IMG/VR virus record: IMGVR_UViG_3300033144_000144
Span: 1-61,941 of that record
Length of the DNA stretch: 61,941 nt
Strand: one strand, 5' to 3'
DNA from: a virus
Shown here: piece by piece, positions 2,441 through 26,700 of the stretch
Layout of the letters: every line of letters begins with the position of its first letter
How positions within the stretch are numbered: position 1 is the first letter of the stretch
Made by a program: the position numbers and the translations under genes
The notes under the pieces: model-generated
Told to the model about the DNA's origin: nothing
The model's input: only the letters and a program-made list of their open reading frames with translations
The model's database searches: none

Positions 2441-2666
2441 TAACCATATAAGGATTATCCTCGATCAACATCTCGTGTCCAGATGATTTATCATAATAGA
2501 TAATATCACCTTCGTTTATAACACTCACATCTGTACCTGACTTAATTACCTCACCCTTACGATATCTAAAGTCCGATGCGTCTTGTGCTGAAAGCAAAAG
2601 ACCTGATTCGGTTTTTAGTTCTTCTTTAATGGTTTTGATAATAATGTATTTACCTATTGGTTTCAT
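2409..2666 (-). CDS. groES: GroES-like co-chaperonin (Cpn10)
   Basis: An 85-residue protein, slightly shorter than bacterial GroES (about 97). It begins MKPIGKYIIIKTIKEELKTESGLLL, matching the Cpn10 first strand and the start of the mobile loop. It continues with the conserved beta-barrel pattern GEVIKSGTDVSVINEGDIIYYDKSSGHEM and a final EDNPYMVITERDVVVVL. The protein would cap the chaperonin and bind it through the mobile loop. The mobile loop is short. Its ATG overlaps the groEL stop (ATGA), so the pair is translationally coupled in the unusual order groEL then groES. Confidence 0.9.
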   Translation of the reverse strand: MKPIGKYIIIKTIKEELKTESGLLLSAQDASDFRYRKGEVIKSGTDVSVINEGDIIYYDKSSGHEMLIEDNPYMVITERDVVVVL

Positions 2667-4321
2667 CTTTCAGCTCTTTTATGTGTAACGATTGCATTAG
2701 TAGTTAAGATAGTTGTGGCTACACTAATAGCATTCATCAATGCGTTCTTAGTTACTTTGGCTGGATCTACAATCCCCATCTCAATCATATCTCCATACTC
2801 TTGTTTAAACACATCGTATCCTTTTGTATTGAATGCTGGGTATGGTGCATTTTCGAAATCACCAAAAGCTCTCTCATCATATATCTCTTTCAATACTTCA
2901 TCTTCATCTAATCCAGCGTTCTTAAGTATTTGTTGAAGTGGTGCTTTAAGTGCTTCTCGAATAATCATTTCAGTAGCCTGGTCTTCTGCAATAGTTTCAT
3001 CTGTTGCATCTTCACAATTACAACCGAAGTGACGGTGTATATCATATAAGAATAATCCGCCTCCAGGCAGAATGCCTTCTTGTAGTGCGGAACGCACTGC
3101 ACACACCGAGTCATCGACTCGGTCAAATTTTTCTTTTTGCTCTATATCTGAGTTAGCTCCAACATATATACAACCAATACCTCCAGCCAAACTCGCAATC
3201 CTTTCGTTGATAAACTCTTTCTCATGTTTAGCTGTGGTATTATCTTGTTGAACTTTTAGTTCTGCAATTCTATTAGTTATCTCTTCTGACTGATCTCCAT
3301 CTTTTATAATTACTGTATTTGTTTTACCTACAATAATCTTATCTGCAAAACCTAAATCGTCTGCTGTGATTAAAGATAAATCATCTCCAGTCTTTTCAGA
3401 AAAGTATTTAGCCCCAATAGCTAAAGCAATATCTTGCATAAGCTCGTGAGTCTTATATCCAAATGAAGGCGGTAGTATATTACAGAACTTCAAACCATTA
3501 CGAGCAACATTAGCTGCCAGTGTATTAATTACATTACCAGAACATGTTCCTATGATAAGTAACTTTTCTCCAGCATTGATAATTGGTTTTAGAATATTTT
3601 CGATTTGAAGGATATTGTTAATCTCAGTATCACATACTAATACTCTAACACCCTCCATGATACACTCATCTTTTCTCTGGTCATTAATAAACAATGGTGA
3701 AGTATAACCTCTATCGATTCGAATACCGTTGGTAACTTCAGAGTAAGTTTCATCTGTTTGAGATCTTTCAACTGTTACTATTCCATCTTGACCAACTTGC
3801 TTATATGCATCAGCAATAATTTTACCTAAATCAAAATCATTGTTAGCAGAGATAGAAGCAATGTGATATAACATATCATCGGTAACCTCAACTGAGCGTT
3901 CTTTAATCTTTTTAAGAATAATTTCAGAGTCATACTTAATTCCATTAATTACCTCCCACACATTGTGATGAGGTTGTATCCATTTTAGTCCAGCCTTTAC
4001 AAAAGCCTCAGCTAATACAATAGCAGTAGTTGTTCCATCTCCAGCTACATTAGCTGTTTTCTCAGATGCTTGTTTAATCATTCTAACCGCAAGGTTCTCA
4101 ATTGGATCATCGAGATGAATTGACTTAGCTACAGTAACTCCATCTTTGGTAACTGTTAATCCTTGTAAATGGTCTGGTGATTCTACCAACACTGTTTTAC
4201 CTCGTGGCCCAAGTGTTGATTTAACTGCTTTAGAGATTTTAGTTATTCCGCTGATTAACTTCTCTCTTGCCTCCTTATCAAAAGTAAGGTCTTTTGGAAT
4301 GTATCCTTGTTCTGCATTCAT
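2663..4321 (-). CDS. groEL: GroEL chaperonin (Cpn60)
   Basis: A 552-residue full-length group I chaperonin. Visible hallmarks: TLGPRGKTV (36-44), TKDGVTVAKSI (58-68), the ATP-site GDGTTTA (94-100), RVDDSVCAVRSALQEGILPGGG near residues 400-425, which keeps the catalytic Asp, and GIVDPAKVTKNAL near the C-terminus with the Asp that contacts adenine. The C-terminal Gly-Gly-Met repeats of bacterial GroEL are absent; the chain ends THKRAER. ATP-driven folding with the adjacent GroES is expected, probably of phage capsid or tail proteins (inference). A TAnnTTTG promoter box and one arm of a repeat module lie directly upstream. Confidence 0.95.
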   Translation of the reverse strand: MNAEQGYIPKDLTFDKEAREKLISGITKISKAVKSTLGPRGKTVLVESPDHLQGLTVTKDGVTVAKSIHLDDPIENLAVRMIKQASEKTANVAGDGTTTAIVLAEAFVKAGLKWIQPHHNVWEVINGIKYDSEIILKKIKERSVEVTDDMLYHIASISANNDFDLGKIIADAYKQVGQDGIVTVERSQTDETYSEVTNGIRIDRGYTSPLFINDQRKDECIMEGVRVLVCDTEINNILQIENILKPIINAGEKLLIIGTCSGNVINTLAANVARNGLKFCNILPPSFGYKTHELMQDIALAIGAKYFSEKTGDDLSLITADDLGFADKIIVGKTNTVIIKDGDQSEEITNRIAELKVQQDNTTAKHEKEFINERIASLAGGIGCIYVGANSDIEQKEKFDRVDDSVCAVRSALQEGILPGGGLFLYDIHRHFGCNCEDATDETIAEDQATEMIIREALKAPLQQILKNAGLDEDEVLKEIYDERAFGDFENAPYPAFNTKGYDVFKQEYGDMIEMGIVDPAKVTKNALMNAISVATTILTTNAIVTHKRAER

Positions 4322-4832: not shown

Positions 4833-4993
4833 TAAAAATTTTTTAGATGTCTGGGGGCTGAGGGTTATATGTCATCATACATTGCGTTGTGCGTTTAGAA
4901 AACAAAAAAAAATTTGCACCCCCCCCTAACCAAATCGGTTCACCTTGTCCAAATGTTTTGGCTTTTTTTCCAGCTGGGCTGGATGGCTACCTC

Positions 4994-5060
4994 TGTCCAG
5001 TTAGATAGGTGTACCAGTTACCCTTGTCCAGTTGTCGTTGTCCAGTTAAGTTGTCCAGTT
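4994..5060. repeat. Cluster of TGTCCAGTT repeats in the early control region
   Basis: TGTCCAGTT occurs four times in 67 nt (4994-5002, 5025-5033, 5039-5047, 5052-5060), with near copies at 4945-4952 and 5011-5019. The whole 4833-5258 stretch lacks a convincing gene. It also contains small hairpins (CCAAA-TGT-TTTGG followed by a T run at about 4949-4969, and CCAGC-TGG-GCTGG next to it). It lies upstream of the early promoter, so protein-binding sites or a structured regulatory segment are plausible. Confidence 0.5.
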
Positions 5061-5258
5061 AAGCTACCTTCCCCCATCTGACCAGTAAGGATAAGACAAA
5101 TGCTCACTTTGAATAGACAAAGAGAGATGTCTTATAACCCCTGACCGAGAGCCATAATGCGTAAACAAAACAAAAAAGTTATCAACAATCTAACTGACTG
5201 ATAATCACTGACATTACATATTGAATTTGTATGGGACAATGTATTCAACAAGTATTTG

Positions 5259-5290
5259 TTTGTCTATGTCATAGAATTAGACTATCTTTA
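5259..5290 (+). promoter_or_regulatory. Candidate early promoter
   Basis: TTTG at 5259-5262 and TATCTTTA at 5283-5290 are separated by exactly 20 nt. This fits the Bacteroidetes -33/-7 layout with one mismatch in the -7 box. The spacing is identical to the second plus-strand promoter at 11183-11214. The first early ATG is 36 nt downstream at 5326. Confidence 0.65.
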
Positions 5291-5325
5291 CACTGAATTT
5301 AAACATTAAACAAACACAAATTATT

Positions 5326-5583
5326 ATGAAAAATTACGAAAAAGCATTCGAAGAATTGAGAAAATTGAACATAGCTGTCCAGCGTAACTGGGGCGATGAC
5401 AAGGTACACGAAGACAGAGGTTACTTCTGGATATGGTGCGAAGGCATCACTGATGAAACCAGTTATCACATCGACTACTGGAACAGATTCGAAGGTAGCG
5501 AAAAGGTTCAGTCGATACTGGAGAAGCACGACCTATATTTCGAATGGGAGAATAGTGCAGTAGCATCAATCTACGATGCATAA
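5326..5583 (+). CDS. Early protein of unknown function, 85 aa
   Basis: This is the first gene after the early promoter. Its 85 residues include many Trp, Tyr and acidic residues (RGYFWIWCEGITDETSYHIDYWNRFEGSE). No signal peptide or membrane segment is present. The stop codon (5581-5583) is followed after one base by hammerhead ribozyme 1. Position and composition suggest a small host-takeover or anti-defence protein, but there is no direct evidence for that role. Confidence 0.8.
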   Translation: MKNYEKAFEELRKLNIAVQRNWGDDKVHEDRGYFWIWCEGITDETSYHIDYWNRFEGSEKVQSILEKHDLYFEWENSAVASIYDA

Positions 5584-5584
5584 A

Positions 5585-5638
5585 GGCAATCTGATGAGAC
5601 CTGAATGGTCGAAACTGGAGGAGACTCCAGTCATTGTC
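5585..5638 (+). ncRNA. Type I hammerhead ribozyme 1
   Basis: Stem I is GGCAAT (5585-5590) with ATTGTC (5633-5638). The core CTGATGA is at 5591-5597. Stem II is GACC/GGTC with loop TGAAT (5598-5610), followed by GAAA at 5611-5614. Stem III is CTGGAG-GAGA-CTCCAG (5615-5630) with a GNRA tetraloop. The TC at 5631-5632 completes the cleavage site, so the cut is expected after C5632. All invariant core positions (CUGANGA, GAA, A-U closing pair, H17=C) are present. The ribozyme starts one base after the upstream stop and its cut leaves a 30-nt leader before ATG 5663. Confidence 0.9.
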
Positions 5639-5662
5639 AAACAAAATTTAAACGAAATTATT

Positions 5663-5899
5663 ATGAATTTAATTGCAAAAAATCCCAAGCATCAAACGAT
5701 GGTTAACCGATGTGTTAACTGGTTAAAAAAGTACAATGAGTACAACACACAAAGAGACATTGCTGATGGCAATGGAGATGAAAAGCAGTATGCTAAATGG
5801 GACAAGAAATGCATCAAAGCATTCGATATGTACCTTGAGTACCTATCTGAATTACCGAAGAGAGAGGTAACTCAAATCGAGAAATCAGAATTATATTAA
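5663..5899 (+). CDS. Early protein of unknown function, 78 aa
   Basis: The start is set at ATG 5663 (MNLIAKNPKHQTMVNRC). The open frame extends back to 5576, but that extension is the hammerhead ribozyme sequence and the upstream gene end. The chosen start has the A/T-rich leader typical of this phage. The 78 residues are mostly helical and charged (VNWLKKYNEYNTQRDIADGNGDEKQYAKWDKK). No family is recognised. Confidence 0.75.
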   Translation: MNLIAKNPKHQTMVNRCVNWLKKYNEYNTQRDIADGNGDEKQYAKWDKKCIKAFDMYLEYLSELPKREVTQIEKSELY

Positions 5900-5919
5900 T
5901 CACTAAAAATCACACAGAA

Positions 5920-6492
5920 ATGAACACACAAAATTTGAATTTAATCGCAACTCAGCTGAAGGTAACTCAGCTGGTGAACCAGTACCACAAAGTGTACAAA
6001 GCTACACTGGAGAAGAATCTGAACGATAAACCAATCAAGAACGATGGCTGGGATTCTATGCAAGAGAGAGAAGAACAAGTATCTTACAAGTTAGGTAACA
6101 AGTTTTATCCGAAGTTAAGAATGATACTGGAAGAGGTAGGTATCTCAAATGATATGGCTACCACCATCGGACATCTGTTACTGGACGAGCCAAGTAAGGA
6201 ACACTGGACAATAATCAAGTCTTTCTTTGAGCCAATTGAATTCATCAGTGAGGATGAAATCAATAGATCTATAGAAAAGCATAATGGGTACACTAACATT
6301 GAGACCTACAGACTATGTCTGATACTGGATAACATTGTTATGAAACATAATGCTATGCACTACTTTTTCGAGTACCTCCAGCAAGGAGAATTCACTGAAA
6401 AAGACTACCATAAAATTAACTGGAACGAGGTTAATGAGAGGTATTTAGAACAACATATGGATATTAACTATGATAACATCCTGAATCGATAA
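5920..6492 (+). CDS. Early protein of unknown function, 190 aa
   Basis: 190 residues, soluble, predicted mainly helical (QLKVTQLVNQYHKVYKATLE near the N-terminus and EEVGISNDMATTIGHLLLDEPSKEHW in the middle). No catalytic signature is visible. The stop at 6490-6492 is immediately followed by hammerhead ribozyme 2, which begins at 6493. Confidence 0.85.
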   Translation: MNTQNLNLIATQLKVTQLVNQYHKVYKATLEKNLNDKPIKNDGWDSMQEREEQVSYKLGNKFYPKLRMILEEVGISNDMATTIGHLLLDEPSKEHWTIIKSFFEPIEFISEDEINRSIEKHNGYTNIETYRLCLILDNIVMKHNAMHYFFEYLQQGEFTEKDYHKINWNEVNERYLEQHMDINYDNILNR

Positions 6493-6555
6493 ATACTCTG
6501 ATGAGCAACACTGGAAGGTGGCGAAACTTCCCCAGTCAGCTGGGGGAGTCAGTAT
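6493..6555 (+). ncRNA. Type I hammerhead ribozyme 2
   Basis: Stem I is ATACT (6493-6497) with AGTAT (6551-6555). CTGATGA is at 6498-6504. Stem II (6505-6522) pairs GC-CAC with GTG-GC around an AA bulge, followed by GAAA at 6523-6526. Stem III is nine pairs, CTTCCCCAG with CTGGGGGAG, around loop TCAG (6527-6548). TC is at 6549-6550 with the cut expected after C6550, leaving a 23-nt leader before ATG 6574. Compared with copy 1 nearly every helix base differs while pairing is kept. Confidence 0.9.
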
Positions 6556-6573
6556 AAACTAAATAATATAAAA

Positions 6574-7011
6574 ATGGGATACAACACAGACTGGAATGGG
6601 TACTTGGAGACAAGTCGACCATTCACCGAAAGCGAGATTAATCAGTGGACAGAGATGGCTGAAACAAGGCACGATAGCGAGTACCATTATGGTAACTCAC
6701 AAAGGGAATACCCATCAATATGGTGCGACTTTGAAATCAGTAATCAGGAAGGTACTGGAGTCTTCCAGTGGAACGGAAGTGAAAAAACCTATGAAGGTTT
6801 AGGATGGATTAAATACTTCCTTAACTGGACAATGAAACTTGATGAACCAATGGTGGTGAAAGGTAGGTTTGATTGGGAAGGTGAAGAAGAAGGTGATGAA
6901 GGAGTAGTTATAGTAGAACGCAAAGATAGAGACTACATCATCCATATTGGTGAGGTAGAAAAACATTACCACAAAGTGATGAAGGCACATACTCTGATGA
7001 GACTTAAGTAG
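6574..7011 (+). CDS. Early protein of unknown function, 145 aa
   Basis: 145 residues, rich in Trp, Tyr and acidic residues (GYNTDWNGYLETSRPFTESEINQW; FDWEGEEEGDEGVVIVERKDRDYIIHIGEV), probably an alpha/beta fold. The last eight codons and the stop (about 6988-7011) are the same bases as the first part of hammerhead ribozyme 3, so this gene's end is both coding and catalytic RNA. No family is recognised. Confidence 0.85.
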   Translation: MGYNTDWNGYLETSRPFTESEINQWTEMAETRHDSEYHYGNSQREYPSIWCDFEISNQEGTGVFQWNGSEKTYEGLGWIKYFLNWTMKLDEPMVVKGRFDWEGEEEGDEGVVIVERKDRDYIIHIGEVEKHYHKVMKAHTLMRLK

Positions 7012-7043
7012 TCGAAACTACTCCAGCTGGAGTAGTCAGTATG
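6988..7043 (+). ncRNA. Type I hammerhead ribozyme 3 (overlaps the 3' end of a gene)
   Basis: Stem I is CATACT (6988-6993) with AGTATG (7038-7043). CTGATGA is at 6994-7000. Stem II is GACT-TAAGT-AGTC (7001-7013), followed by GAAA at 7014-7017. Stem III is CTACTCC-AGCT-GGAGTAG (7018-7035). TC is at 7036-7037, with the cut after C7037 and a 27-nt leader before ATG 7065. The 5' half encodes the last residues and TAG stop (7009-7011) of the upstream gene, so a terminating ribosome would sit on the core. Confidence 0.92.
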
Positions 7044-7064
7044 AATTTAAATAATAACACACAA

Positions 7065-7553
7065 ATGAAAAAGTACATTGTAATAGATACTTGGAATGGT
7101 GAAGGTTACTCCGACCAAAATGGAGTAGATACCAAGCAGTTTCAGTATAAAAAGTCAGCATTTAAATATGCTTATGACAGAACCTTAAGTAATGCTGATG
7201 GAGATGCAGATTTAGTTTGCAGATATTCAGATGAAGAATCTGATAGTGAACACTGGTCACCAGTTAAAAGAGATGCTGATGGAGATGGATTCTATTGGGA
7301 TACCTATGATGATAATTCAGGTAGCTATCAAGTTTATGAGATTAAAGATGCATATGCAGTTATGATACTATGCAACACAAACGAAGTTTATATGCTTACT
7401 GAAGATGAGTACATCGACAGAAAAAATGAATTGTATGAAGATTATGCTTCAGCTGAATATACAGATGAAATATATGAAGAAGAAAATGGTGATTCTTTTT
7501 ATCCAGCAATAGATGATTATGACTACCAATTTAGATTAATTAAAAACCTATAA
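7065..7553 (+). CDS. Early acidic protein of unknown function, 162 aa
   Basis: The start is set at ATG 7065 (MKKYIVIDTWNGEGYSDQNG). An earlier in-frame ATG at 7041 lies inside stem I of ribozyme 3, right after the cut site, and is less likely. The protein is strongly acidic (DADGDGFYWDTYDDNSGSYQ; EDYASAEYTDEIYEEENGD), a composition common in DNA-mimic and other host-interaction proteins, though no such function is shown. It ends 2 nt before the lipoprotein gene. Confidence 0.8.
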   Translation: MKKYIVIDTWNGEGYSDQNGVDTKQFQYKKSAFKYAYDRTLSNADGDADLVCRYSDEESDSEHWSPVKRDADGDGFYWDTYDDNSGSYQVYEIKDAYAVMILCNTNEVYMLTEDEYIDRKNELYEDYASAEYTDEIYEEENGDSFYPAIDDYDYQFRLIKNL

Positions 7554-7555
7554 AA

Positions 7556-7738
7556 ATGAAAAAGACAATAATAATATTCTCTGCAATAATCACATTGAGT
7601 AGTTGTGGAATGATGAACAAGTTATCTGATGAGCAATTACATCAAAGAAATAAAATTGATTATGAGATGTCAAAACTTTGGAATGAATACCAAGTAAAGA
7701 ACGACTCTTTACTAATTGAATACTATAAAATTAAATAG
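7556..7738 (+). CDS. Small phage-encoded lipoprotein, 60 aa
   Basis: The N-terminus MKKTIIIFSAIITL followed by SSCG is a textbook lipoprotein signal peptide with lipobox L14-S-S-C17. After signal peptidase II cleavage, Cys17 would be lipidated, leaving a 44-residue helical, charged domain. It lies in the early operon, immediately downstream of another early gene. A membrane-anchored early phage lipoprotein could block receptor use or DNA entry by a second phage, as the T5 lipoprotein does. This is an analogy from placement and architecture, not sequence similarity. Confidence 0.8.
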   Translation: MKKTIIIFSAIITLSSCGMMNKLSDEQLHQRNKIDYEMSKLWNEYQVKNDSLLIEYYKIK

Positions 7739-7740
7739 AT

Positions 7741-8079
7741 ATGGAAATGAAAATTATGAGATTAAGCGAAGTAACATTTGAGATGTTACAGAACCAGTAT
7801 CCTGAATGCTACAAATCAAAATTCGGCAGAGGTGTAACAATGCCAAATGCAGATGACTCACAAAGAGTAATATCTAATGAGGATGCGTTAACACACTACA
7901 AAGAATTAATGATTGGCATGTGGGGAGATGTAATGATTCAATTAAATCCTGAAAGTTTCACTTGGTTTGACCGAGTACAGATTCAGGATGCAAACTTCAA
8001 AGATGCACGAAGAAGATTTACAGAACACAAAGCCGAAGTCATTGCTGACTGGAGCAAAAAAGGATACAATACCGATTAG
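7741..8079 (+). CDS. Early protein of unknown function, 112 aa
   Basis: 112 residues, start at ATG 7741 just after the lipoprotein stop. It is soluble and mixed alpha/beta, with the C-terminal helical part DARRRFTEHKAEVIADWSKKGYNTD. No domain is recognised. A 110-nt gap with an RNA-like fold follows it. Confidence 0.75.
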   Translation: MEMKIMRLSEVTFEMLQNQYPECYKSKFGRGVTMPNADDSQRVISNEDALTHYKELMIGMWGDVMIQLNPESFTWFDRVQIQDANFKDARRRFTEHKAEVIADWSKKGYNTD

Positions 8080-8091
8080 TTTGTGTGTGAA

Positions 8092-8168
8092 GAAGGTTTA
8101 ATTCACCTTCCTACCTTAACCTCAATGCGTAAATGCATTGGGGATTTGGTGGTAGAGGGATGTTCCTC
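8092..8168 (+). ncRNA. Structured intergenic RNA of unknown class
   Basis: The 110-nt gap before the gene at 8190 folds on paper into three helices. They are GAAGGT/ACCTTC (8092-8097 with 8105-8110), CTACC (8111-8115) with GGTAG (8151-8155) enclosing a 9-bp stem CCTCAATGC/GCATTGGGG (8120-8128 with 8135-8143), and GAGG/CCTC (8155-8158 with 8165-8168). It is not a hammerhead: CTGATGA and GAAA are missing. It sits at the same kind of gene junction as the four ribozymes. It could be another processing element or a weak terminator. I could not fit it to twister, HDV-like or pistol patterns. Confidence 0.45.
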
Positions 8169-8189
8169 GCAAAATTAAATTAAATTATT

Positions 8190-8648
8190 ATGGCAAAAAG
8201 AATTGCAAATTTCAATGTATCTGACCACTTATCCAGTCAGATAGAATACTTTCAGAAAAACAAAGGAGAGTATCAAGAAAACTTTACCAATGGATTTGAT
8301 GACAGAAGTTTAGATCTAATTACTGACAAAGAGATACAAGATTATTTCTTTTCAGCTGATAGTGAAGAACACCATTATCACTGGGAAGACTTCCTCTATG
8401 ATTTAGAAGAAGAATTCAGTCAGTACATAGGTAAAGTAGTTTCTGTTGAAGGAAGAAATATGGGCTGGAATAATAAAACTGGCTACAAGACATTTCAAAT
8501 TGAATCTACTGAAGATATCTTCAGACAGATAGCACCTGAATGTGACTTGACTTTTTCAATAGACAAAGTAGATAACAAAGAATATGAGGTGGTCATAGCA
8601 CATCACGACTCACCAATGGGAGAAAATTATAACTTAAAAATTAAATAG
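8190..8648 (+). CDS. Early protein of unknown function, 152 aa
   Basis: 152 residues, acidic in the middle (SADSEEHHYHWEDFLYDLEEEFSQYIG), followed by a beta-rich half (VVSVEGRNMGWNNKTGYKTFQIES) and a C-terminal EVVIAHHDSPMGENYNL. No membrane segment and no recognised family. It is followed 2 nt later by a membrane protein gene. Confidence 0.85.
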   Translation: MAKRIANFNVSDHLSSQIEYFQKNKGEYQENFTNGFDDRSLDLITDKEIQDYFFSADSEEHHYHWEDFLYDLEEEFSQYIGKVVSVEGRNMGWNNKTGYKTFQIESTEDIFRQIAPECDLTFSIDKVDNKEYEVVIAHHDSPMGENYNLKIK

Positions 8649-8650
8649 AT

Positions 8651-8890
8651 ATGGCAATTAAAAGACATCCAAAAGACAGAGGATATGGTTACAAGAAATC
8701 ATATAACTATGAGCAATCGATAGCTGAACACGAAGATTTAGAACCAACAAAAGAAGACTGGGCAAAGTTAAGGGAGAGAATGCCTTCACTGATATGTGAG
8801 TCACTAATCTTTGGATTTGGGGCTGGTACATTCCTTCTGATTATAGCTTCGATAATCATCGGAGTATTGAACCTATTACACACATTATAA
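8651..8890 (+). CDS. Small membrane protein, 79 aa
   Basis: The 50-residue hydrophilic N-terminal part (KRHPKDRGYGYKKSYNYEQ...) is followed by one strong C-terminal membrane segment (LIFGFGAGTFLLIIASIIIGV, about residues 52-73). It is likely an inner-membrane tail-anchored protein with a cytoplasmic head. Its position in the early operon suggests a host-directed function, but none can be assigned. Confidence 0.8.
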   Translation: MAIKRHPKDRGYGYKKSYNYEQSIAEHEDLEPTKEDWAKLRERMPSLICESLIFGFGAGTFLLIIASIIIGVLNLLHTL

Positions 8891-8948
8891 ACACAAAAGT
8901 TTGGTTATTTAATATATTTAAACTATTATTGTACAAAATTTAAACATT

Positions 8949-9185
8949 ATGACAGAGCAACAATACCATTCTCTTACAAGATATCTTGCAGAGGAAACTG
9001 CACACCATAAGTTTGGTGAGGATGCAGTACACTACAACTCCAGCACTGGAGAACACGAATTCACACATCACGCTGAAAAATTTATTAGAGATGAAATTAG
9101 TAATCTTGAATTTCTGTTTGAGGTGTATGATGTGAAACCTAAATTAAGTTTAATTAAAAGAATAAAAAAATGGCTGAAAAATTAA
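8949..9185 (+). CDS. Early protein of unknown function, 78 aa
   Basis: 78 residues with a His- and Glu-rich N-terminus (SLTRYLAEETAHHKFGEDAVHYNSS) and a basic C-terminus (LSLIKRIKKWLKN). It overlaps the next gene by 16 nt in another frame. The 58-nt gap upstream shows only A/T-rich leader sequence. Function unknown. Confidence 0.75.
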   Translation: MTEQQYHSLTRYLAEETAHHKFGEDAVHYNSSTGEHEFTHHAEKFIRDEISNLEFLFEVYDVKPKLSLIKRIKKWLKN

Positions 9186-9538
9186 TTGACAAAGTAGATG
9201 ATGGATTCAACTACTTTAGTTACCGATTAGAAGAATTAAAGACAGATGATGTGTACTACATAAAAGCATTTATGAAGTACATTGAATCTCTTGAATCAAA
9301 ACTATCTAAAGTTAGTAAAGACTACAGAAACACATTAAATGATTATCAGTCACCTATGTGGCTGATGACATACAATGATGTTGTTGGAGGATCTACACAC
9401 GAGGTAGTTACAAATGATCCCCAGTTATATCTCAAGAGACTTAACAGAGACAGAGTAGCTGATGGTGAATTACCTGATACGATGGATGAATTCACCAAGA
9501 CCTTAATCAAATTAGAAACCTTTAAAAAATCAAAATAA
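9170..9538 (+). CDS. Early protein of unknown function, 122 aa
   Basis: 122 residues. The N-terminal half is predicted coiled coil or helical (YRLEELKTDDVYYIKAFMK, SLESKLSKVSKDYRNTL), the C-terminal half mixed. It overlaps the gene upstream by 16 nt and its stop shares one base with the next start (TAATG). No family is recognised. Confidence 0.75.
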   Translation: MAEKLIDKVDDGFNYFSYRLEELKTDDVYYIKAFMKYIESLESKLSKVSKDYRNTLNDYQSPMWLMTYNDVVGGSTHEVVTNDPQLYLKRLNRDRVADGELPDTMDEFTKTLIKLETFKKSK

Positions 9539-9801
9539 TGAGAGAAGTAAAGATTAGTAGTCGTACTATATACTCCAAGACTTGTGAGATATATATTGAA
9601 ATTCCAAAAGACATACCTCAAGATAAAGTATCAGACTGGTTATTCGAAAACGAAATAAAGTGGACTGATGCTATCGACAATGCAAATGGCGAAGCAGTTT
9701 TAGACTTCGGATTTGGATTAGATGATGGTATGGAAGATAAGAATTCTGAACACGAGATGAGATTTGACATCGTAGGTGAAAACTATGGTGGACATATTTA
9801 A
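9538..9801 (+). CDS. Early protein of unknown function, 87 aa
   Basis: 87 residues: a basic beta-strand N-terminus (REVKISSRTIYSKTCEIYIEI) and an acidic C-terminal half (LDFGFGLDDGMEDKNSEHEM). Its stop at 9799-9801 is immediately followed by hammerhead ribozyme 4. No recognised domain. Confidence 0.75.
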   Translation: MREVKISSRTIYSKTCEIYIEIPKDIPQDKVSDWLFENEIKWTDAIDNANGEAVLDFGFGLDDGMEDKNSEHEMRFDIVGENYGGHI

Positions 9802-9857
9802 ATACTCTGATGAGCCAATGAGATTTTGGCGAAACTGGTAGCAATACCAGTCAGTAT
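9802..9857 (+). ncRNA. Type I hammerhead ribozyme 4
   Basis: Stem I is ATACT (9802-9806) with AGTAT (9853-9857). It can extend through a 3-nt AAA bulge into TATTTAA/TTAAATA (9795-9801 with 9861-9867). CTGATGA is at 9807-9813. Stem II is GCCAA/TTGGC (9814-9830), followed by GAAA at 9831-9834. Stem III is CTGGTA-GCAA-TACCAG with a GNRA loop (9835-9850). TC is at 9851-9852, with the cut after C9852 and a 23-nt leader before ATG 9876. Confidence 0.92.
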
Positions 9858-9875
9858 AAATTAAATAAAATCGTT

Positions 9876-10604
9876 ATGCCTAATTATGTTTATTGTGGGA
9901 TATCTCCCACTAAAGATTTGACTCCTGAACAAATCGAGATAGCAAAAAAGATTCAGGAAGCTGGAGGATTATGTAGATATTATGTACCAAGACCAGCTGA
10001 ATTAGATAAGACTACTTCACCAACAAGAGTAGTTAGTGATGAAGAGTATCACAAAGCAATGAAACTCAATGAGACTGAAAAATTTAAATCTTATCCTATT
10101 ACAAGGGAGATGCAAAAGTCTTTATTGAAAGCACATAACTTTGACAATTGGTACGATTGGTCACACTATCACTGGGGAACAAAGTGGGGAGATTGTGACT
10201 TCGATATAGACTGGAATAAAGATGGAACTCACTTCGAAATGAGGTTTGATACTGCTTGGTCACCAATTGCTTTAGAAATTATTATTATGTTTGCTAAAGA
10301 TTTCCCTGATTTCACTTACTGGTGGGAAGAAGAACAAGGATGGGGAGGAGAATGCGACTACACTAATGGAGAAGAGTCAAGATATATGGAGTATGATATT
10401 CCAAACTGGACTGATGAAGAAGAAGTAGAGATCTCGCATAAAGGAAAGCTAATAGTTACTACGCTGACTAAACTTGCAGACCAGCATCCTAACTATGATA
10501 ATGGTACTGGATACTATTTAGATTATGGTCACGAATATGCTGGTAAGACAAGAATCGAAGCACTGGAATATGTGATGAAAAATTATGAGAAAGAAAATGT
10601 TTAG
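9876..10604 (+). CDS. Api92/DUF1281-like ferredoxin-fold protein
   Basis: 242 residues. The segment from about 80 to 160 resembles the ferredoxin-like Api92/YubB (DUF1281) family found on phages and plasmids: NWYDWSHYHWGTKWGDCDFD, then FDTAWSPIALEIIIMFAKDFPDFTY with the characteristic TAWSP and FPD, and an aromatic, acidic stretch. The biochemical role of the family is not established. It follows ribozyme 4 and overlaps the next gene by 8 nt. Confidence 0.75.
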   Translation: MPNYVYCGISPTKDLTPEQIEIAKKIQEAGGLCRYYVPRPAELDKTTSPTRVVSDEEYHKAMKLNETEKFKSYPITREMQKSLLKAHNFDNWYDWSHYHWGTKWGDCDFDIDWNKDGTHFEMRFDTAWSPIALEIIIMFAKDFPDFTYWWEEEQGWGGECDYTNGEESRYMEYDIPNWTDEEEVEISHKGKLIVTTLTKLADQHPNYDNGTGYYLDYGHEYAGKTRIEALEYVMKNYEKENV

Positions 10605-11182: not shown

Positions 11183-11214
11183 TTTGCTCAAGTAATACTA
11201 AAGTATTATCTTTG
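11183..11214 (+). promoter_or_regulatory. Candidate promoter of the replication genes
   Basis: TTTG at 11183-11186 and a perfect TATCTTTG at 11207-11214 are separated by 20 nt, the same spacing as the early promoter at 5259-5290. A leader of about 110 nt follows before ATG 11332. It contains a hairpin, GTGTGT (11234-11239) with ACACAC (11265-11270), and an inner GTAG/CTAC pairing. Confidence 0.75.
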
Positions 11215-11331: not shown

Positions 11332-11625
11332 ATGAAAAAAAATATTTTCGATGCGTATGCGTTAGCAATCGCAAAGCAATTTCATCTGTCACTCGATCAG
11401 ATGTTTACCAAGACTAAAAGAAGAGAGGTAGTAGATGCAAGACAAATGTTATACTATCTCTGTATGGAAAGACCAATTCGTATATCCTACATACAAAGAT
11501 TTATGGAGGATGCTGGATTAAGCGTATGCCACTCTACTATTATACATGGTTACAAGAAAGCAAAGGAGACTATAGATAAAGATAAAGACTTTAAAGATAT
11601 AGTAACTCAACTTCAGGATGTATAA
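11332..11625 (+). CDS. Stand-alone DnaA domain IV-like DNA-binding protein
   Basis: 97 residues. The run REVVDARQMLYYLCMERP (about 31-48) and later CHSTIIHGYKKAKETI (66-81) match the helix-turn-helix of DnaA domain IV, where VDARQIAMYL and HSTVIHA carry the basic loop and signature helix. The AAA+ ATPase part of DnaA is absent. It probably recognises a specific DNA site. The GTGTCRA/TTGACAC iterons are candidate targets (inference). It is first in the replication operon, after a long structured leader. Confidence 0.8.
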   Translation: MKKNIFDAYALAIAKQFHLSLDQMFTKTKRREVVDARQMLYYLCMERPIRISYIQRFMEDAGLSVCHSTIIHGYKKAKETIDKDKDFKDIVTQLQDV

Positions 11626-13804: not shown

Positions 13805-13834
13805 TAGGGGACTTGTTCCCCTTTCTTTTTCTTT
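13805..13834 (+). terminator. Rho-independent terminator
   Basis: AGGGG (13806-13810) pairs with CCCCT (13818-13822) around loop ACTTGTT and is followed by a T-rich run to 13834. It lies 22 nt after the SSB-like gene and just before iteron module 2. It would end the recombination-gene transcript. Confidence 0.75.
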
Positions 13835-13975: not shown

Positions 13976-16387
13976 ATGGAAATAACAATATTTAAAGATA
14001 TTAAAGATACTGCTCAACCTTTTTATAGAGATGTATCGATAATATTAGACAGAATAAAAAAGGGAGCATCACAAGAGATAGTGAGAGCAATCCGATCAGA
14101 ATCAGATAAAGAAAAAAGAAATCTATTAAAGCAGTCATTACCAGCAATTTGTTTCAGTGGTAAATTTACCAAAAGAAATGACAGTTCATTGAGCCAACAT
14201 AGTGGTATCATATGTTTAGACTTCGACAACTTCCCATCAGAGAAGTTAATGCTGGAAGAAAAAGAAATTATAACACAAGATAGATATACCTATTCTTGTT
14301 TCATTTCACCAAGTGGTCTTGGGTTAAAGGTGTTGGTTAAGATACCAGCTGAAGAAGACAACCATAAAAAATTCTTCAACTCATTACAACATCATTATGG
14401 TTCAGAGTTCTTTGACCAAACATGCAAGAATGTATCAAGGGTTTGTTATGAATCATATGATCCACTGATTTACATCAACGAACAATCAAGTATATTCAAT
14501 CAAATAACTGAACAAGAATATCAAGAGGTAGTAAAACATAAAGATGCACAGACAATTCCAATCACAGATGAAAATAAAATAGTAGAGATACTTATGAAGT
14601 GGTGGGAAAGAAAATACGGATTTAAAAGTGGTGAAAGAAATAATAATATATATATTCTTGCATCAGCTTTCAATGACTTTGGTGTTACACAAACACTGGC
14701 GGAGTATGTAATGAATCCATTTACCTCTGATGACTTTAGTTCATATGAATTAAAAAGAACAATTAGATCAGCTTACGCACAGAAACAAAACTTCGGTACA
14801 AAGTATTACGAAGATGAGGAGAAAGTTAAAAGCGTAAAGCAAAAGATACGAAGAGGTATATCTAAAAGTGAAATCAAAAATCAATTGGTAGATTCAAGTG
14901 AGATAGATGAGGTAGTGGTTGATAATGTATTGAGAAGGTTTGAAGAGGAGCAAGATGAACAAAAGTTCTGGAGTAAAAGTGAGAAGGGTGTAGTAAAGAT
15001 TATTCATCTATCATTTAAAAACTTTTTAGAAGACAATGGATTCTATAAGTTTAGTCCTGAAGGTAGTAAAAACTATGTCTTTGTAAAGGTGACTAACAAC
15101 CTCATCGAACACGCATCAGAAAAAGAAATAAAAGATTTTGTATTGGAGTATCTATTAGAGATAGAAGATACCAGTATATATAATTACTTTGCTGAATGTA
15201 CTCGATACTTTAGAGAAGAGTTCCTCACATTACTTTCTTCTATCAGCGTTTACTTTATTGCAGATGATAAAGATACTGCATACTTATACTATACAAATTG
15301 TGCAGTAAAGATTACTAAAGATGATGTTACACCAATTGATTACTTGGATTTGGGTGGATATGTGTGGAAGGATCATGTAATAGATAGGGTGTTTGATATA
15401 TGTGAGATAACTGATTGTGATTTTCAAACTTTTATAAATAACATTTCAGGAAACGATAGCAAGAGAACCAAATCAATGGAATCCACTATTGGATTTTTAC
15501 TGCATGGTTGGAAGAATTTATCTTATTGTCCAGCCACTATATTAAATGATGAGATTATATCTGACAATCCTGAAGGTGGTACTGGTAAGGGTTTGTTTAT
15601 GAATGGAATATCCCATATGAAGAAGCTCGTAGTTATTGATGGAAAATCCTTTAACTTTGAAAAATCATTTGCATACCAGCTGGTGTCAGCTGACACACAA
15701 ATACTTTGTTTCGATGATGTTAAAAAGAATTTTAACTTTGAAAGATTATTTAGTGTGGTGACAGAAGGATTAACTTTAGAGAAGAAGAACAAGGATGCTA
15801 TCAAGATTCCTTTTTCTAAATCACCTAAAGTAGCAATCACTACTAACTATGCGATTAGAGGTAAGGGTAATTCATTTGCTCGTAGAAAGTGGGAGTTAGA
15901 ATTAAATCAATTCTATACTAAAGAGTTCACTCCACTTGTAGAGTTTGGTAAGCTAATGTTTGGGGAATGGGATGATAATGACTGGTGTCAGTTCGATAAT
16001 TATATGATTAAGAACCTTCAGTTATATTTAGATAAAGGTTTATTGAGAAGTGATTTCATTAATCAAAAGACCAGGACATTTGCCGCCAATACATCTTACT
16101 CATTTGTAGAATGGTGTGGTGTGATTGACAATAAGAGACACCCAAAGTTGGTGACTAAAACAAAAATCTATAAGAACGATTTGTATTTAGATTTTATAGA
16201 TGATTATCCTGATTACGCACCTAAAAGTAGGGAAGCAATCAGTCGTAATGAGTTTGGTAAATGGCTGATGTCATATGCAGATTTCCAGTACGGATGTGAT
16301 GCCTTACAAGGTAGGGACAACATAGGTAGATGGATAGAGTTTGTAACAAAAAGTTATTATGAAAAACAAGAAACATTAAAATTATGA
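13976..16387 (+). CDS. BT4734-type primase fused to SF3/D5-like helicase
   Basis: 803 residues. The N-terminal domain (about 50-180) matches the BT4734/VirE-N type seen in Bacteroidetes replication proteins: CFSGKFTKRNDSSLSQHSGIICLDFDN, then SCFISPSGLGLKVLVKIP and RVCYESYDP. The C-terminal half has Walker A EGGTGKG (533-539), a Walker B-like QILCFDDVKKNF and TTNYAIRGKGNSFARRKWELE typical of DUF5906/D5-type SF3 helicases. It would initiate and unwind at the replication origin. It sits directly behind iteron module 2. No DNA polymerase gene is present, so host polymerase is presumably recruited. Confidence 0.9.
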   Translation: MEITIFKDIKDTAQPFYRDVSIILDRIKKGASQEIVRAIRSESDKEKRNLLKQSLPAICFSGKFTKRNDSSLSQHSGIICLDFDNFPSEKLMLEEKEIITQDRYTYSCFISPSGLGLKVLVKIPAEEDNHKKFFNSLQHHYGSEFFDQTCKNVSRVCYESYDPLIYINEQSSIFNQITEQEYQEVVKHKDAQTIPITDENKIVEILMKWWERKYGFKSGERNNNIYILASAFNDFGVTQTLAEYVMNPFTSDDFSSYELKRTIRSAYAQKQNFGTKYYEDEEKVKSVKQKIRRGISKSEIKNQLVDSSEIDEVVVDNVLRRFEEEQDEQKFWSKSEKGVVKIIHLSFKNFLEDNGFYKFSPEGSKNYVFVKVTNNLIEHASEKEIKDFVLEYLLEIEDTSIYNYFAECTRYFREEFLTLLSSISVYFIADDKDTAYLYYTNCAVKITKDDVTPIDYLDLGGYVWKDHVIDRVFDICEITDCDFQTFINNISGNDSKRTKSMESTIGFLLHGWKNLSYCPATILNDEIISDNPEGGTGKGLFMNGISHMKKLVVIDGKSFNFEKSFAYQLVSADTQILCFDDVKKNFNFERLFSVVTEGLTLEKKNKDAIKIPFSKSPKVAITTNYAIRGKGNSFARRKWELELNQFYTKEFTPLVEFGKLMFGEWDDNDWCQFDNYMIKNLQLYLDKGLLRSDFINQKTRTFAANTSYSFVEWCGVIDNKRHPKLVTKTKIYKNDLYLDFIDDYPDYAPKSREAISRNEFGKWLMSYADFQYGCDALQGRDNIGRWIEFVTKSYYEKQETLKL

Positions 16388-20751: not shown

Positions 20752-23700
20752 TTAATTATTAAATGCTTCGTCTAAGGCTTGTTGTCTCATTTGTTTTTCT
20801 TGTTGCTTAAACTCTTTCATCATCTCATTATACTCTTGCATCTCAGGAGAATTATTGAACTCATCTATCTGATCCATTGCATCAGGAAAGTATTTTCTCA
20901 TTTCAGTCTTATTTAACTTTTTTGGCTTCGGCTTCTTCTCTGGCTTACCTTCAATTACATAGTCCGAATAATTAAACATTCGCAAGAACACTTCTTTAGG
21001 ATCACCTCCACTGTTTATAATCTTCTGCATATTCATTCTCATCCTATCTAAAGTTTTAAGAGGTAGGGATGCAATGTTTCCTGGCACACCCAGTACAGCA
21101 GTAAGAGGTAGTAAAGCAAAGTACGCTTGTTTCTCTGCCTCTGCTTGTTTAGCTGGATCTTTTAAATTCTGAGCCTTAACAAGTTTATCATAGAAGTCTG
21201 TAAACAAATCAAATATTGGGAATTGTTTAGTGTCTTTCCACCAAGGCTTACCTTGTGCAACATCAGCTGTTTGTTCTAAGATTTGTCCAACAACAAAGAT
21301 TGAGTTAAACACACTAAGTATAGATGCTCTTAACATATCTTCTTTGTCCTCATCATCCCAATCTGTAACAGGGAATCCTGAACCAGCCCATTGGAATATC
21401 ATTGGCATAGCAAATTGATAAACCATAATTGTTCTTAGGTTTTGTTGCCATGTTCCTTTTCCTGAACCATCAACAATGTTTCTACCTAACTCTCTATATC
21501 CTCCAAAGATTTGTCTGAAGTATGCTTTAGGTGCAGACATAAACATATTAAACAACTGAATGTAACCACCAGCATTTTGCAATGCATCTTTGTCTTGCTT
21601 GTCTGAAGACTGCTGAACTTCTTTTGTTTGTTCTTCAAACTTTATCATAGCTTTTTTCTTAGCAGCTTCAGGACTCATACCTTCTTTCTGGTATTTGTTT
21701 TTCAGATAAACATAGTTGGGAATACCACCTAAAAATATAGCTTGTTTATCACCAGCTTTAATTGGTGACATAAGAAGTCGAGTAATCTTATCTCCTTTAT
21801 TTCCAGGAGTATAAGTTTCCATCTGCTTCTCTCCATACGACTCAATAGTCTTACTAATCTGTTCCCAGTATCGGTACTTAATATATACTGACTCTTCCGA
21901 TATTTCTTGCCACGCTTTTTTAAATTCAGAAACACCCATCGTACTGGCTGTCTTAATCCAATTACGGTAACCAATATAGTTTCCATATGTAGCAATAGAT
22001 GTAAGCTGTTTTAAATAAACAGTTAGTCCAGCTCCTAACTTCTGTACAATAAATACATTGTTGGCTCTGTTAACTCTTTGAACCATAGCATCAGATTGAT
22101 TAGCACCTCTTTTAGCTGTAGCCATCAATGCGTTTCTAACAGTGTCATATACTCCTTTACCATGTATGTTTACAATAGTATTAGCAATATCTTTATTGAA
22201 GAACACTTTAGATATATCATTCATATTCTCACCGTAAGCAGCAAAGTGTTCCATATCTTTTATATATGTATCAATTGCAGTGAACGCATCAACAGGCATA
22301 ATAGCTTTGTTGTTCTTCCTGGTTAACTTAGTAGAGTTACCAATCACATTCATACTCATTTGAGATGTACCTTGATCTGACAATAAAGAAAGAGGATCAT
22401 ACTTCTCCATCTCAACTTTATCACCAACACTTAACTGTCTAAATGTTCTACCAGAATAACTATCTCGTTGAGGTAAATCAGTATTATATAATCTTCTATA
22501 TACTTTATTATACTTCTCATATAAAGTTGGAAGCATTTCTTCTACTTGCCATCTACCCATTTCTAAAAGGTCAGAATAGTTTTCTTCAAAATACTTACTT
22601 AAACCATCCATAATTTCAGCATAGTTATCTCCTAATGAAGTTTCAAAACCAGCATGAGTGTCAGGTTGTTTGTATTGGAAGTATAGATATTGTAATTGAA
22701 GTGGAGTCAATCCAGAAAATGGAATGTTTTCTCTTATGGTTTTATTTAAGTTCTCCTTGTTCTTTGAAGTTGGATCATTATCAAACTTCTTTTGAGCTTC
22801 TTGAACTTCTTGAGGATTCTTAAATAAATTACCATCTTCAATTTGAGTAAAGTCTAATTGCTTTCTATACTGTTTTATCTTCTTTAAATAGTCTGGCCCT
22901 AAATACTCTCTACTCTTTTCTGTAATGAGTTGATCAAGAGCCATAATACTTTCTTTATACATACGAGTAGACTCATTTACTTTACGATAAACAAAGTCTT
23001 TTATAAAGCCATCACCAAATACTTCGCCTGGAAGTCTATCTAAAGTTTCTGATAACTGGCTCAAACCAAGAGTACCTTCCTTCAAGAAACTACTAATGTT
23101 GTTTCCAATATTTTGGAAGTATTTTTTAATACGGTTTCTACCATAGTCAGATGCCTTTTCATCCGCTCTTCTTTTTATTTCTTTTCTAACCTCCTCTAAA
23201 ACTTCTGGATCACTAAAGTCTCTGGACTCTTTCTGACCAGTTAATGCTTGATAAAACTTAGATGTGTTTTCAGCATACTTTTTAGATCTTCGAGCAGCTG
23301 CATCTTTAAAGTTATTACGACCAGTTGTAACTAATGATTTTAGATTTTCATAAACCTCAGCTAACTGATCAGCTTTTCGAGGATTGTTATCCTCCATTAA
23401 CTTAGAGTTGTTAATACCTAAAGCAATATTTAAAACTAACATTTGAGTTTCCTCTTCAGGTGTCAATGTAGTTTTCTCATTAAGTTTATTTATTTCTGTA
23501 ATGATATTAGTTTGCTCTGCGATAATATCATCTTTTATTTCAGCACCTTTATATAGTTTCTCTTTTATTTTTTCTACTATCTTTCTGGTCTGCATGTCTA
23601 TCTTGACACCTCGCTTTACACCACCTATGTTTACTTCAAACTCTTTACTCAGAATTTTATCTATAAGTTTATTTAAAGTAGAAACATTTTTGGTAGCAGC

Positions 23701-26700
23701 CATTTCCTCAATCTTACCGATTAAGTTTCTTAGATTACCCTTCAACCATTTTGGTTCGGCTTCCTGGATAGTTCTAAGTAAAGATCTAACCTCTCCTTTG
23801 GTGTAATCACCTTTAGGCATGATCTCTCTTATAGCTCTTTGCAATTGTCTTTTAATATCACGAATCTCTCTCGCCCCTCTTTTCTTTTGGCGAATAAGTT
23901 TCTTAAGATTACTTATAGTTTTACTAACATCCTTAACTGCTCTACCACCCAACGCTTCTTGCATTTCAACCTCAAGCTGTTGTTGTAAAGTAGACTGTTC
24001 TTTTTTAGAGACAACACCTTCAGTAGATTCTTGATAAGGCTTAAGAGTTTTCATAAACTCTATAGACTCATTAATAATATCTGCTATGCTTCTCTGTTTT
24101 TTCTTAGGAAGTTTATTATTCTTTTTAATTAAAGCATCAAACTTTCTTTTAGTTGCTTCAAAAAGTTTTCTCCCTACATTCATACCTCCTGGAACATTAC
24201 CAAATACTGGAGGGATAGAATCAAATAAATCTAAATCTATTTTTAATAGATCTTTAATCTCTTTTACTTTAAGTTTCTTACCGTCTTTCTTTTTGTATTC
24301 GTTTCTTAAAAAGTATTCTATCTCGCTATTTTCAAAACCAGCTTGACGAGCTAACTTAATTATATCAATAGGGTTATCAAACTTATTGAAAGTCTTTTGC
24401 CATCGTTGTCTACCGTACTGATTCTTTCTTTGAGATGGGAATTTAACCATGCTTCCACCTTGAGATCTTGGTCTGGTGTAAAAAGCATAACCTGTTAATC
24501 TACCTCTGTCATATCCTTCTTGAGAATACAATGCTTCTAATGTATACCCAAGCTCCTCAGCTTTTCTTCGTAGAGCTTGAGGGTTAAATAATGTAGCTGG
24601 GAAAAAGTTATTTTGTTTTAAACCATATTGGTTACCCAACTTAAACAACATGTCTTTACGACTTGCTTGTTTTTGTTCTCTAACTGCAACTGATTCTTTA
24701 TCTTGAGTAGTTTCCGTTTGTGTTTCACCAGATTTTACTTTACCAGTTACTACACTAACATTTCTTACAGCATATGCTTTACCAGAAGATTGAACCAAAA
24801 CATCACCACCTGGTTGTCTATTCTTAAATAAATGAAGGATAGGTTTACCCCCACCTTTTAACGCTATATGAAATGGGTAGCTTGGATGAGAGTCTTCTCT
24901 TACCTCTACCTCACCATCAACTTCTATTGCGGCATAAACATCTCCTACATTTAAACCTTTGGTTAGTTTTTCAGCTGCCATCTTAGCAACTAAATCAACC
25001 AGTGACTGAGAGCCTGGCCCTCTAACTCCAGCTGGAGTATTACCTACACCAACATTTTTCTGAATATCTCCACCTAAAAATTCAGCAATAGCTGCTTGAC
25101 TTTCTTTAGGTAAATTCTTAGCTATAGTAGCTACAATATCTTTTACTACAAATCCTCTCTTCTCAAATGTACTTGTGTTTGGATCAGTGAAATATTTTTT
25201 TATGTCAGCTTTTAAATCTTTAGCACTTTGTCTTAAATTAATTTCACCTTTTGCTTTTCTTACCGCAGAAGATACTGCTGATCTAAATAATGATGGACTA
25301 ATTAATTTATTATCCAACATAGTATTAAGTATAGCTAATGTAGAGTTAACTCCTGACGCACTACTAACTAACTTAGCATCAGTACCTTTAGTTAAAACCA
25401 AATACGCTTTGCCATCATTTGTTTTTATTTGTTTGTTTAAAGCATTGGCTATGGTATTTGCAGTTCCTTTTTTACCAGAAGCCCAAACATCTCCAAACTT
25501 AGTTACAAAGAATACACCACCTTCACCCTCAAATATAACCTTATTGTTATACTTTATTTCACCAGCCAACATATCATCAGGAGCAGTGATTGTAACATCC
25601 TTACCTTCCATGAAAGATGTATCCATAGGTTCTTTAATCAAACCTTTCTTAATCATCTCAGCCACACTATCTTGTTGTGTATATGTAACTTCAAACCCAC
25701 CAACCTTTTGCTCTCTTAAAGCAGCAGCTGGGTTCTTTACTTTTTGCCCTCCTTCTATTTGTTCTATATCACCCTCTTGGATTTCTTCTCCAGTGGTAAC
25801 CTTAGATGCAATAGTGTTTAGTAAATCAATAACAGCTTGATCATCAGCAGTTATATCATTAATTTTAATACCGAACTTTTTAGCAACCTTTTCTATCCAT
25901 CTACGAACCACACTCTTTTGAGGAACAGTTAACTGAGAATAGTTTGCAGATAACTGACCTATAATTTCAGCTAACTTCTCTTCGTTCTGAATATTTTCTT
26001 CATAAGATTCTGCGAAGTTATCAATCTTCTTTTTTAACGGACTGTTCTTATCAAGTGTTTTACTTACGGACTGCATCATTGCCTTAGTAACACGCTGAGT
26101 TTCTAAGTCAGTTCCTAATTTACTTAACAAGATAGCATGAAACGCTTCGTGTGCTACTGTAGAATTAGTTGCGTCCTGAAGATTAATATGAATAGTATTA
26201 TCAAAGAAAGTACCTCTACCTCTTGAACCTGTTGCTTTGGTAAAATCGTCTGCACTTTCATGCATAATGATTTTAATATTAGGCACTACTTTCTTAAGGG
26301 CTTTAGATGCGAGGTCTACCCTACGCATTATACTATCCTTTAACGGATTCTGTTCAGTAACTGGGGACTTAGATTTGTTAATAGAAACAACATCATCAAC
26401 CTCCTCTAATTGTTCACGAGGTATAGGTTCTTTGGTTTGCTCTTGAGAGTCTTCTTGTTCTTGTTGAACCAACTCTTTTATTTGATCAGACCTTTCTTCT
26501 ATTGTTACTTCCGTTTCCGCATCCTGGGTACTACTGGTCTCACCTTCTTGCCCACCCTCTTGGGTAATCTCAATGTTGGTGTTTCCATCTCCCACTTCCT
26601 GGCTACTGTCGGTAGATTCTTGTACATCCACCTTCTCTGTGCTTGACTCTTGAATGGCATCTTCTTTGGTTTTAGTTTCTTTTAAATCAACTGATCCTTC

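Follow-up and report, generated by a model that had tools for sequence, protein, structure and literature searches.

Serial type I hammerhead ribozymes between small phage genes as probable separators of a long transcript

Four type I hammerhead ribozymes stand in series between small genes of a phage genome, and elements of the same kind recur in related phages and at a chromosomal site in Flavobacteriales. All invariant core bases are present in the four elements, which by that measure are real type I hammerheads. Such ribozymes would, with good probability, self-cleave and divide a long phage transcript into messages of one gene or a few genes. This reading is built on the observed structure, covariation, strand, layout and recurrence of the elements. 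The window referred to below is the whole stretch of DNA that was analysed, a virus record of 61,941 bases.

Four elements in one phage genome

All four elements lie on the + strand where the original prediction had placed them, and each reads CTGATGA, helix II, GAAA, helix III, T-C and the closing strand of helix I. Copy 1 (5585..5638) has stem I GGCAAT/ATTGTC, stem II GACC/GGTC and a stem III of 7 bp; copy 2 (6493..6555) has ATACT/AGTAT, a bulged GC-AA-CAC/GTG-GC and 10 bp; copy 3 (6988..7043) has CATACT/AGTATG, GACT/AGTC and 8 bp; and copy 4 (9802..9857) has ATACT/AGTAT, GCCAA/TTGGC and 7 bp. The predicted cuts fall after C5632, C6550, C7037 and C9852, as had been claimed (copy 2 was counted by hand). 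The core C3 U4 G5 A6 N7 G8 A9, G12 A13 A14 and A15.1-U16.1 is present in 4/4 copies and the cleaved base is not G. Each copy has three helices, with stem I open-ended and stems II and III closed by loops.

The hammerhead is the minimum-energy fold of copies 1, 3 and 4, while that of copy 2 is not a hammerhead. Helices II and III had been described as pairing in every copy; this stands, but helix II of copy 2 is no simple stem, being GC-[AA bulge]-CAC/GTG-GC. The bulged stem recurs in L030, L116 and L117, and in other phages with compensating changes (GTA-AA-GGT/ACC-TAC), the recurrent pairs being GCAACAC..GTGGC and GTAAAGGT..ACCTAC. Likewise, the intergenic placement holds except at copy 3, where the stop codon of the upstream ORF (7009-7011) lies in helix II, so that the 5′ half of the element is coding.

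Copies 1, 3 and 4 match a strict descriptor made of the core and three helices, which has 0 matches when the whole window is dinucleotide-shuffled 60 times; copy 2 is missed because its helix II is bulged. A covariance model trained on 11 phage sequences, mostly from other phages, scores copies 1-4 at 69.4, 32.9, 60.1 and 52.4 bits (E 3e-19, 1.5e-7, 3e-16 and 9e-14), E-values that are not fully independent because copy 1 is in the model, whose remaining seeds were gathered via stem I of copies 2-4. Beyond these four, the model has no convincing match in the window (next best E 0.06). Independent weight comes from the shuffles, from an unselected Rfam match of copy 3 to RAGATH-1, and from covariation.

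At relaxed Rfam thresholds, copy 3 reaches 34.9 bits (E 0.0077) against the RAGATH-1-hammerhead, and copy 1 reaches 19.7 bits against type I (RF00163, cut-off 34). A covariance-model search had been put forward as a check on the original prediction, and its outcome is divided: our own model finds all four copies, but 0/4 reach the Rfam gathering cut-off, which is an annotation threshold and not a chemical criterion. In eleven related loci scanned, only two ribozymes pass the RF00163 cut-off (in L191 and L196). Nearly all of these elements are thus hidden by Rfam cut-offs, and the phenomenon is probably under-counted.

Judged from its sequence, the window phage is a relative of the Elemovirus podoviruses of Flavobacteriia. 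Its portal protein has 45% identity, over nearly the full length, to that of Flavobacterium elemo phages and 68% to the portal of an environmental podovirus, with further matches in Maribacter, Cellulophaga and Tenacibaculum phages. The genome encodes a GroEL-like protein together with replication and recombination genes. The chaperonin gene (2663-4321, - strand; 552 aa, phrog_5725) is overlapped at its 3′ end by a few bases of an 85-aa ORF (2409-2666), at a place where relatives have GroES. A single ORF of 2893 aa (20752-29433, - strand) lies on the same strand as the structural genes.

Helix covariation and occurrence in other genomes

In an alignment of 68 matches (66 distinct), 97.8% of 1033 helix cells are paired and 15/17 helix pairs have changes on both sides. 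The covariation score is 0.755, against 0.152 for shuffled alignments and at most 0.09 with slid helices, in an alignment that was fitted to the model structure and is biased towards it; covariation is found in all three helices. As for a possible tertiary contact between loop II and stem I, loop II is conserved across the family (UNAAU or UGAAAU-like) and the flanks of stem I are A-rich. Among 184 distinct sequences, part of them collected by patterns with the core fixed and the model matches being free to vary, all variation in the core is at N7 (T 157, C 14, A 11, G 2), a hammerhead position known to tolerate change.

These data bear on whether the elements are catalytic at all. Intergenic hairpins are common in phages and stem III is long in several copies, as would be expected of hammerhead look-alikes that act as 3′-end stabilisers, attenuators or host RNase processing sites. 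We consider this highly improbable, since unpaired core positions that a hairpin does not need are invariant bar N7, copies 1, 3 and 4 fold into a three-way junction, and no terminator-like site was scored at the elements.

A nucleotide search of a phage collection with the window region gave no match, and neither did a search of viral contigs with the 190-aa ORF between ribozymes 1 and 2. Searching with stem I ATACT/AGTAT as a pattern turned up 27 stretches in viral contigs, and a stem II pattern turned up 72. By a route independent of the ribozymes, homologues of the 803-aa replication protein (at 13976) led to 80 loci, which together with three phage-collection records hold 30 ribozymes. 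Model matches occur in 24/39 whole records of a first set and in 40/40 of a second that was itself picked by a ribozyme pattern; since 15/39 records of the first set have no match, the device is not essential for this phage group. The longest chains have 13, 11 and 9 model matches in single records, all on one strand bar one 17.5-bit match in the third. Elements of this kind are found in related contigs as well.

Among cultured Flavobacterium phages, 68 GenBank records, all with host Flavobacterium sp. BAL314, carry the locus at ≥95% identity, and the model scores it at 52.8 bits in elemoA (MT497065) and elemoE (MT497072) and at 37.6 in elemoF (MT497071). The cultured elemo phages carry one hammerhead, found in L033 (MT497072.1) at 16304-16361 on the - strand, a place where the GenBank annotation has a small ORF on the opposite strand. 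The elemoF hammerhead is a variant with mismatches in stem II.

The stem I pattern also matched 11 contigs of bacterial genomes, all titled Flavobacteriales or Bacteroidetes. Here the hammerhead separates the gene of a TonB-dependent receptor from that of a small, Cys/His-rich lipoprotein (example, L219:2801-2853; contigs L209-L219 and L220-L248). That these eleven contigs are prophage was considered and rejected, as the neighbours are the receptor and the lipoprotein and not phage genes. The neighbouring genes were scanned in one contig, L219; there, the receptor is similar to hemin receptors, and genes for iron transport come next. The model finds the chromosomal element in 22/52 genomes of one family and in 27/298 of the order, and the receptor-lipoprotein hammerhead is present in about 25 Flavobacteriales genomes; all contexts read are this gene pair, except the phage-like L241 and a second copy beside a receptor fragment (L242). 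In the family, the ribozyme is present in 19/20 genomes with a lipoprotein match, and in the remaining genome the match is a weak one, to another protein of 302 aa.

The chromosomal helices are 98.5% paired, with a covariation score of 0.441 versus 0.158, and the loci keep the phage layout of stop, ribozyme, leader and ATG. Rfam cut-offs are reached by 0/15 chromosomal loci. A phylum-wide sample of 396 genomes, with few scored candidates per genome, returned only the seed genome, and this lone match limits false positives. No paper on the receptor-lipoprotein hammerhead was found in a literature search mostly without subscription papers. Retained between this one gene pair in many Flavobacteriales, the hammerhead would represent use by the cell itself, outside mobile DNA.

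Gene layout, transcript cleavage and stem I

The ribozymes of the window sit in a block of small genes ahead of the recombination and replication genes, and we infer early transcription of the block solely from its position beside them. The non-coding gap ahead of the first gene (4938-5062) contains several copies of TGTCCAGTT, two of them in a perfect 13-nt tandem, which are possible iterons or operator sites. The Bacteroidetes promoter consensus used was TTTG-N19..21-TAnnTTTG, and a + strand candidate with one mismatch, TTTG-N20-TATCTTTA (5259..5290), precedes the first gene of the chain.

That gene, an ORF of 85 aa (5326..5583, +), terminates 1 nt ahead of ribozyme 1. Between ribozymes 1 and 2 (5663..6492, +) are two ORFs of 78 aa (5663-5899) and 190 aa (5920-6492), for which no confident family match was obtained. 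The interval between ribozymes 2 and 3 holds an ORF of 145 aa (6574..7011, +; phrog_38666, function unknown) and that between 3 and 4 holds eight small ORFs (7065..9801, +), while ribozyme 4 is followed by an ORF of 242 aa (9876..10604, +; DUF1281_C, Api92-like). The spacing in the window is thus uneven, with about 1-2, 1 and 8 genes between successive ribozymes. In eight chains counted, 15/34 intervals have one ORF and 7/34 have two. No + strand terminator-like site was found within 5300-9900, including between and at the ribozymes, and the first one downstream of the chain is at 13806..13822 (+). Further candidate promoters lie near 8900 and inside genes, so the chain need not be one transcript. 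A perfect promoter of the same type, TTTG-N20-TATCTTTG (11183-11214), is found in the gap ahead of the gene at 11332.

The position of the ribozymes relative to the genes is narrowly set. The upstream stop ends -12 to +7 nt from CTGATGA in 140/169 cases, and in 45 cases the offset is 0 or +4, so that the stop ends right where stem I does or within the core. From the predicted cut to the next ATG the median distance is 25 nt (interquartile 22-28, n=167), and the predicted cut follows a C in 168 cases and an A in 18. With this geometry, the cut would spare the upstream stop codon and leave the downstream gene a short A-rich leader. Such leaders resemble those of neighbouring ribozyme-free genes. 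In L119, L123, L133, L021, L029 and others, the new 5′ end has AGUAUCAUAAGAUACC just 3′ of stem I, where a 5-bp hairpin is possible; it could compete with stem I, driving product release and blocking religation.

Co-transcriptional segmentation of polycistronic mRNA by self-cleavage is in our judgement the best and simplest reading, and a likely one; the same was put forward for other phages by Perreault et al. RNA polymerase would start upstream, for instance at the candidate promoter at 5259, and read through the gene block. Each ribozyme would fold when helix I closes and cut after C17, shortly past the stop codon of the preceding gene and some 25 nt ahead of the start codon that follows. 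Of the two products, the upstream one would keep its stop codon and end in the two ribozyme hairpins with a 2′,3′-cyclic phosphate; the downstream one would begin with a 5′-OH, the end expected from hammerhead chemistry, followed by an unstructured, A-rich leader with room for a ribosome. Neighbouring genes would probably benefit by separate stability and translation. We infer cleavage, co-transcription and the effects on stability and translation from the sequence. The uneven spacing, the records with no match and the further candidate promoters given above count against segmentation. So do the predicted misfolding of copy 2 and the prospect that translating ribosomes impede the folding of a ribozyme that contains their stop codon. 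The separator role given in the original prediction is nevertheless well supported by structure, covariation and layout, with cleavage as its predicted part. The recurrence of the layout in a conserved operon of bacterial chromosomes speaks for it too, as does the cleavage in cells reported for a similar array of phage hammerheads (PMC3088659).

The elements might instead be seams or passengers of gene cassettes, a common core letting small early genes recombine or move while cutting is incidental. In 47 cross-genome pairs the same upstream family and ribozyme are followed by non-homologous downstream genes, and stems II and III are combined in many ways, both as this idea would have it. We nonetheless give it a small chance: the stop/start fit, the conservation of the core and the heavy compensatory change in the helices need selection on the RNA, the chromosomal element keeps to a single site within one gene pair, and in the window neither a transposase nor an endonuclease was seen next to the elements.

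Ribozymes of one genome also tend to share stem I. Its 5 bp are identical in 45/111 within-genome pairs (40.5%) versus 7.9% between genomes, with a permutation maximum of 21, whereas stem II has no within-genome excess (21/111, 18.9%, versus 16.2% between genomes). The sharing persists in loci not chosen by stem I (40/98 versus 8.1%; permutation maximum 27), and 28/53 adjacent ribozymes are able to cross-pair over ≥5 bp, versus 12.7% between genomes. A stop-codon constraint as the sole cause was rejected for the ATACT group, in which the stop is usually outside stem I. The sharing may come from duplication or gene conversion, or from a need of the ends to pair.

If the ends do pair, cleavage could be followed by ligation, the ends of an excised fragment re-pairing through the common stem I and restoring a hammerhead that would ligate them to give circular or rearranged/recombined early mRNAs, which we regard as quite unlikely. 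There is an equally slim prospect that stem I is kept identical per genome because fragments pair their own or each other's ends. The excess confined to stem I, its persistence in loci not picked for that stem and the cross-pairing of neighbours all speak for such pairing, as does the lack of AGTAT in the window leaders of ribozyme-free genes, for which reason AGTAT was also dismissed as a general leader motif. However, duplication or gene conversion could give a common stem I, and spliced or circular products were sought in other arrays and none were seen (Perreault et al., PMC3088659). The sharing also has exceptions: stem I of window copy 1 is a different one, which would keep the piece bounded by copies 1 and 2 from closing, and stems I differ within chains such as L196 and L150. 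These exceptions, copy 1 and chains like L196, speak against circularisation as the main function.

Relation to known hammerheads

Series of hammerheads between phage genes had been thought undescribed, which is wrong: clusters in prophages were reported in 2011 as arrays in Agrobacterium tumefaciens, Clostridium scindens and Azorhizobium caulinodans, which are active in vitro and in one case in E. coli, and for which message processing was proposed (Perreault et al., PMC3088659). Our elements resemble these arrays in that several close hammerheads lie on the gene strand of phage DNA and flank single genes or short blocks. They differ in numbering up to 13 per record, in belonging to a lineage related to Flavobacteriia podoviruses, in their fixed stop-codon/leader geometry and in a stem I common within genomes.

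With Rfam RF00163 (Hammerhead_1) the elements share an open stem I, closed stems II and III and the same core, although the sole window copy listed there scores far short of the cut-off, as given above. RAGATH-1 (RF03152), in which a pseudoknot with an upstream stem-loop replaces helix II (structure, PMC11300833), is the best Rfam match for copies 1-3 and likewise has an A-rich stretch ahead of stem I. Here, in contrast, helix II is a normal hairpin and the scores are 24.6-34.9 bits against a cut-off of 56.3; membership of RAGATH-1 was rejected, there being no pseudoknot and the folds of copies 1, 3 and 4 having a normal helix II.

The published work that we found has neither chains of this length nor a stem I common within a genome without a like sharing of stem II. 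With a large covarying family of fixed gene geometry in cultured phages, mRNA segmentation becomes directly testable. Segmentation of the kind proposed by Perreault et al. would thus be extended in chain length, in fixed geometry, in its spread through a phage lineage and by a chromosomal example.
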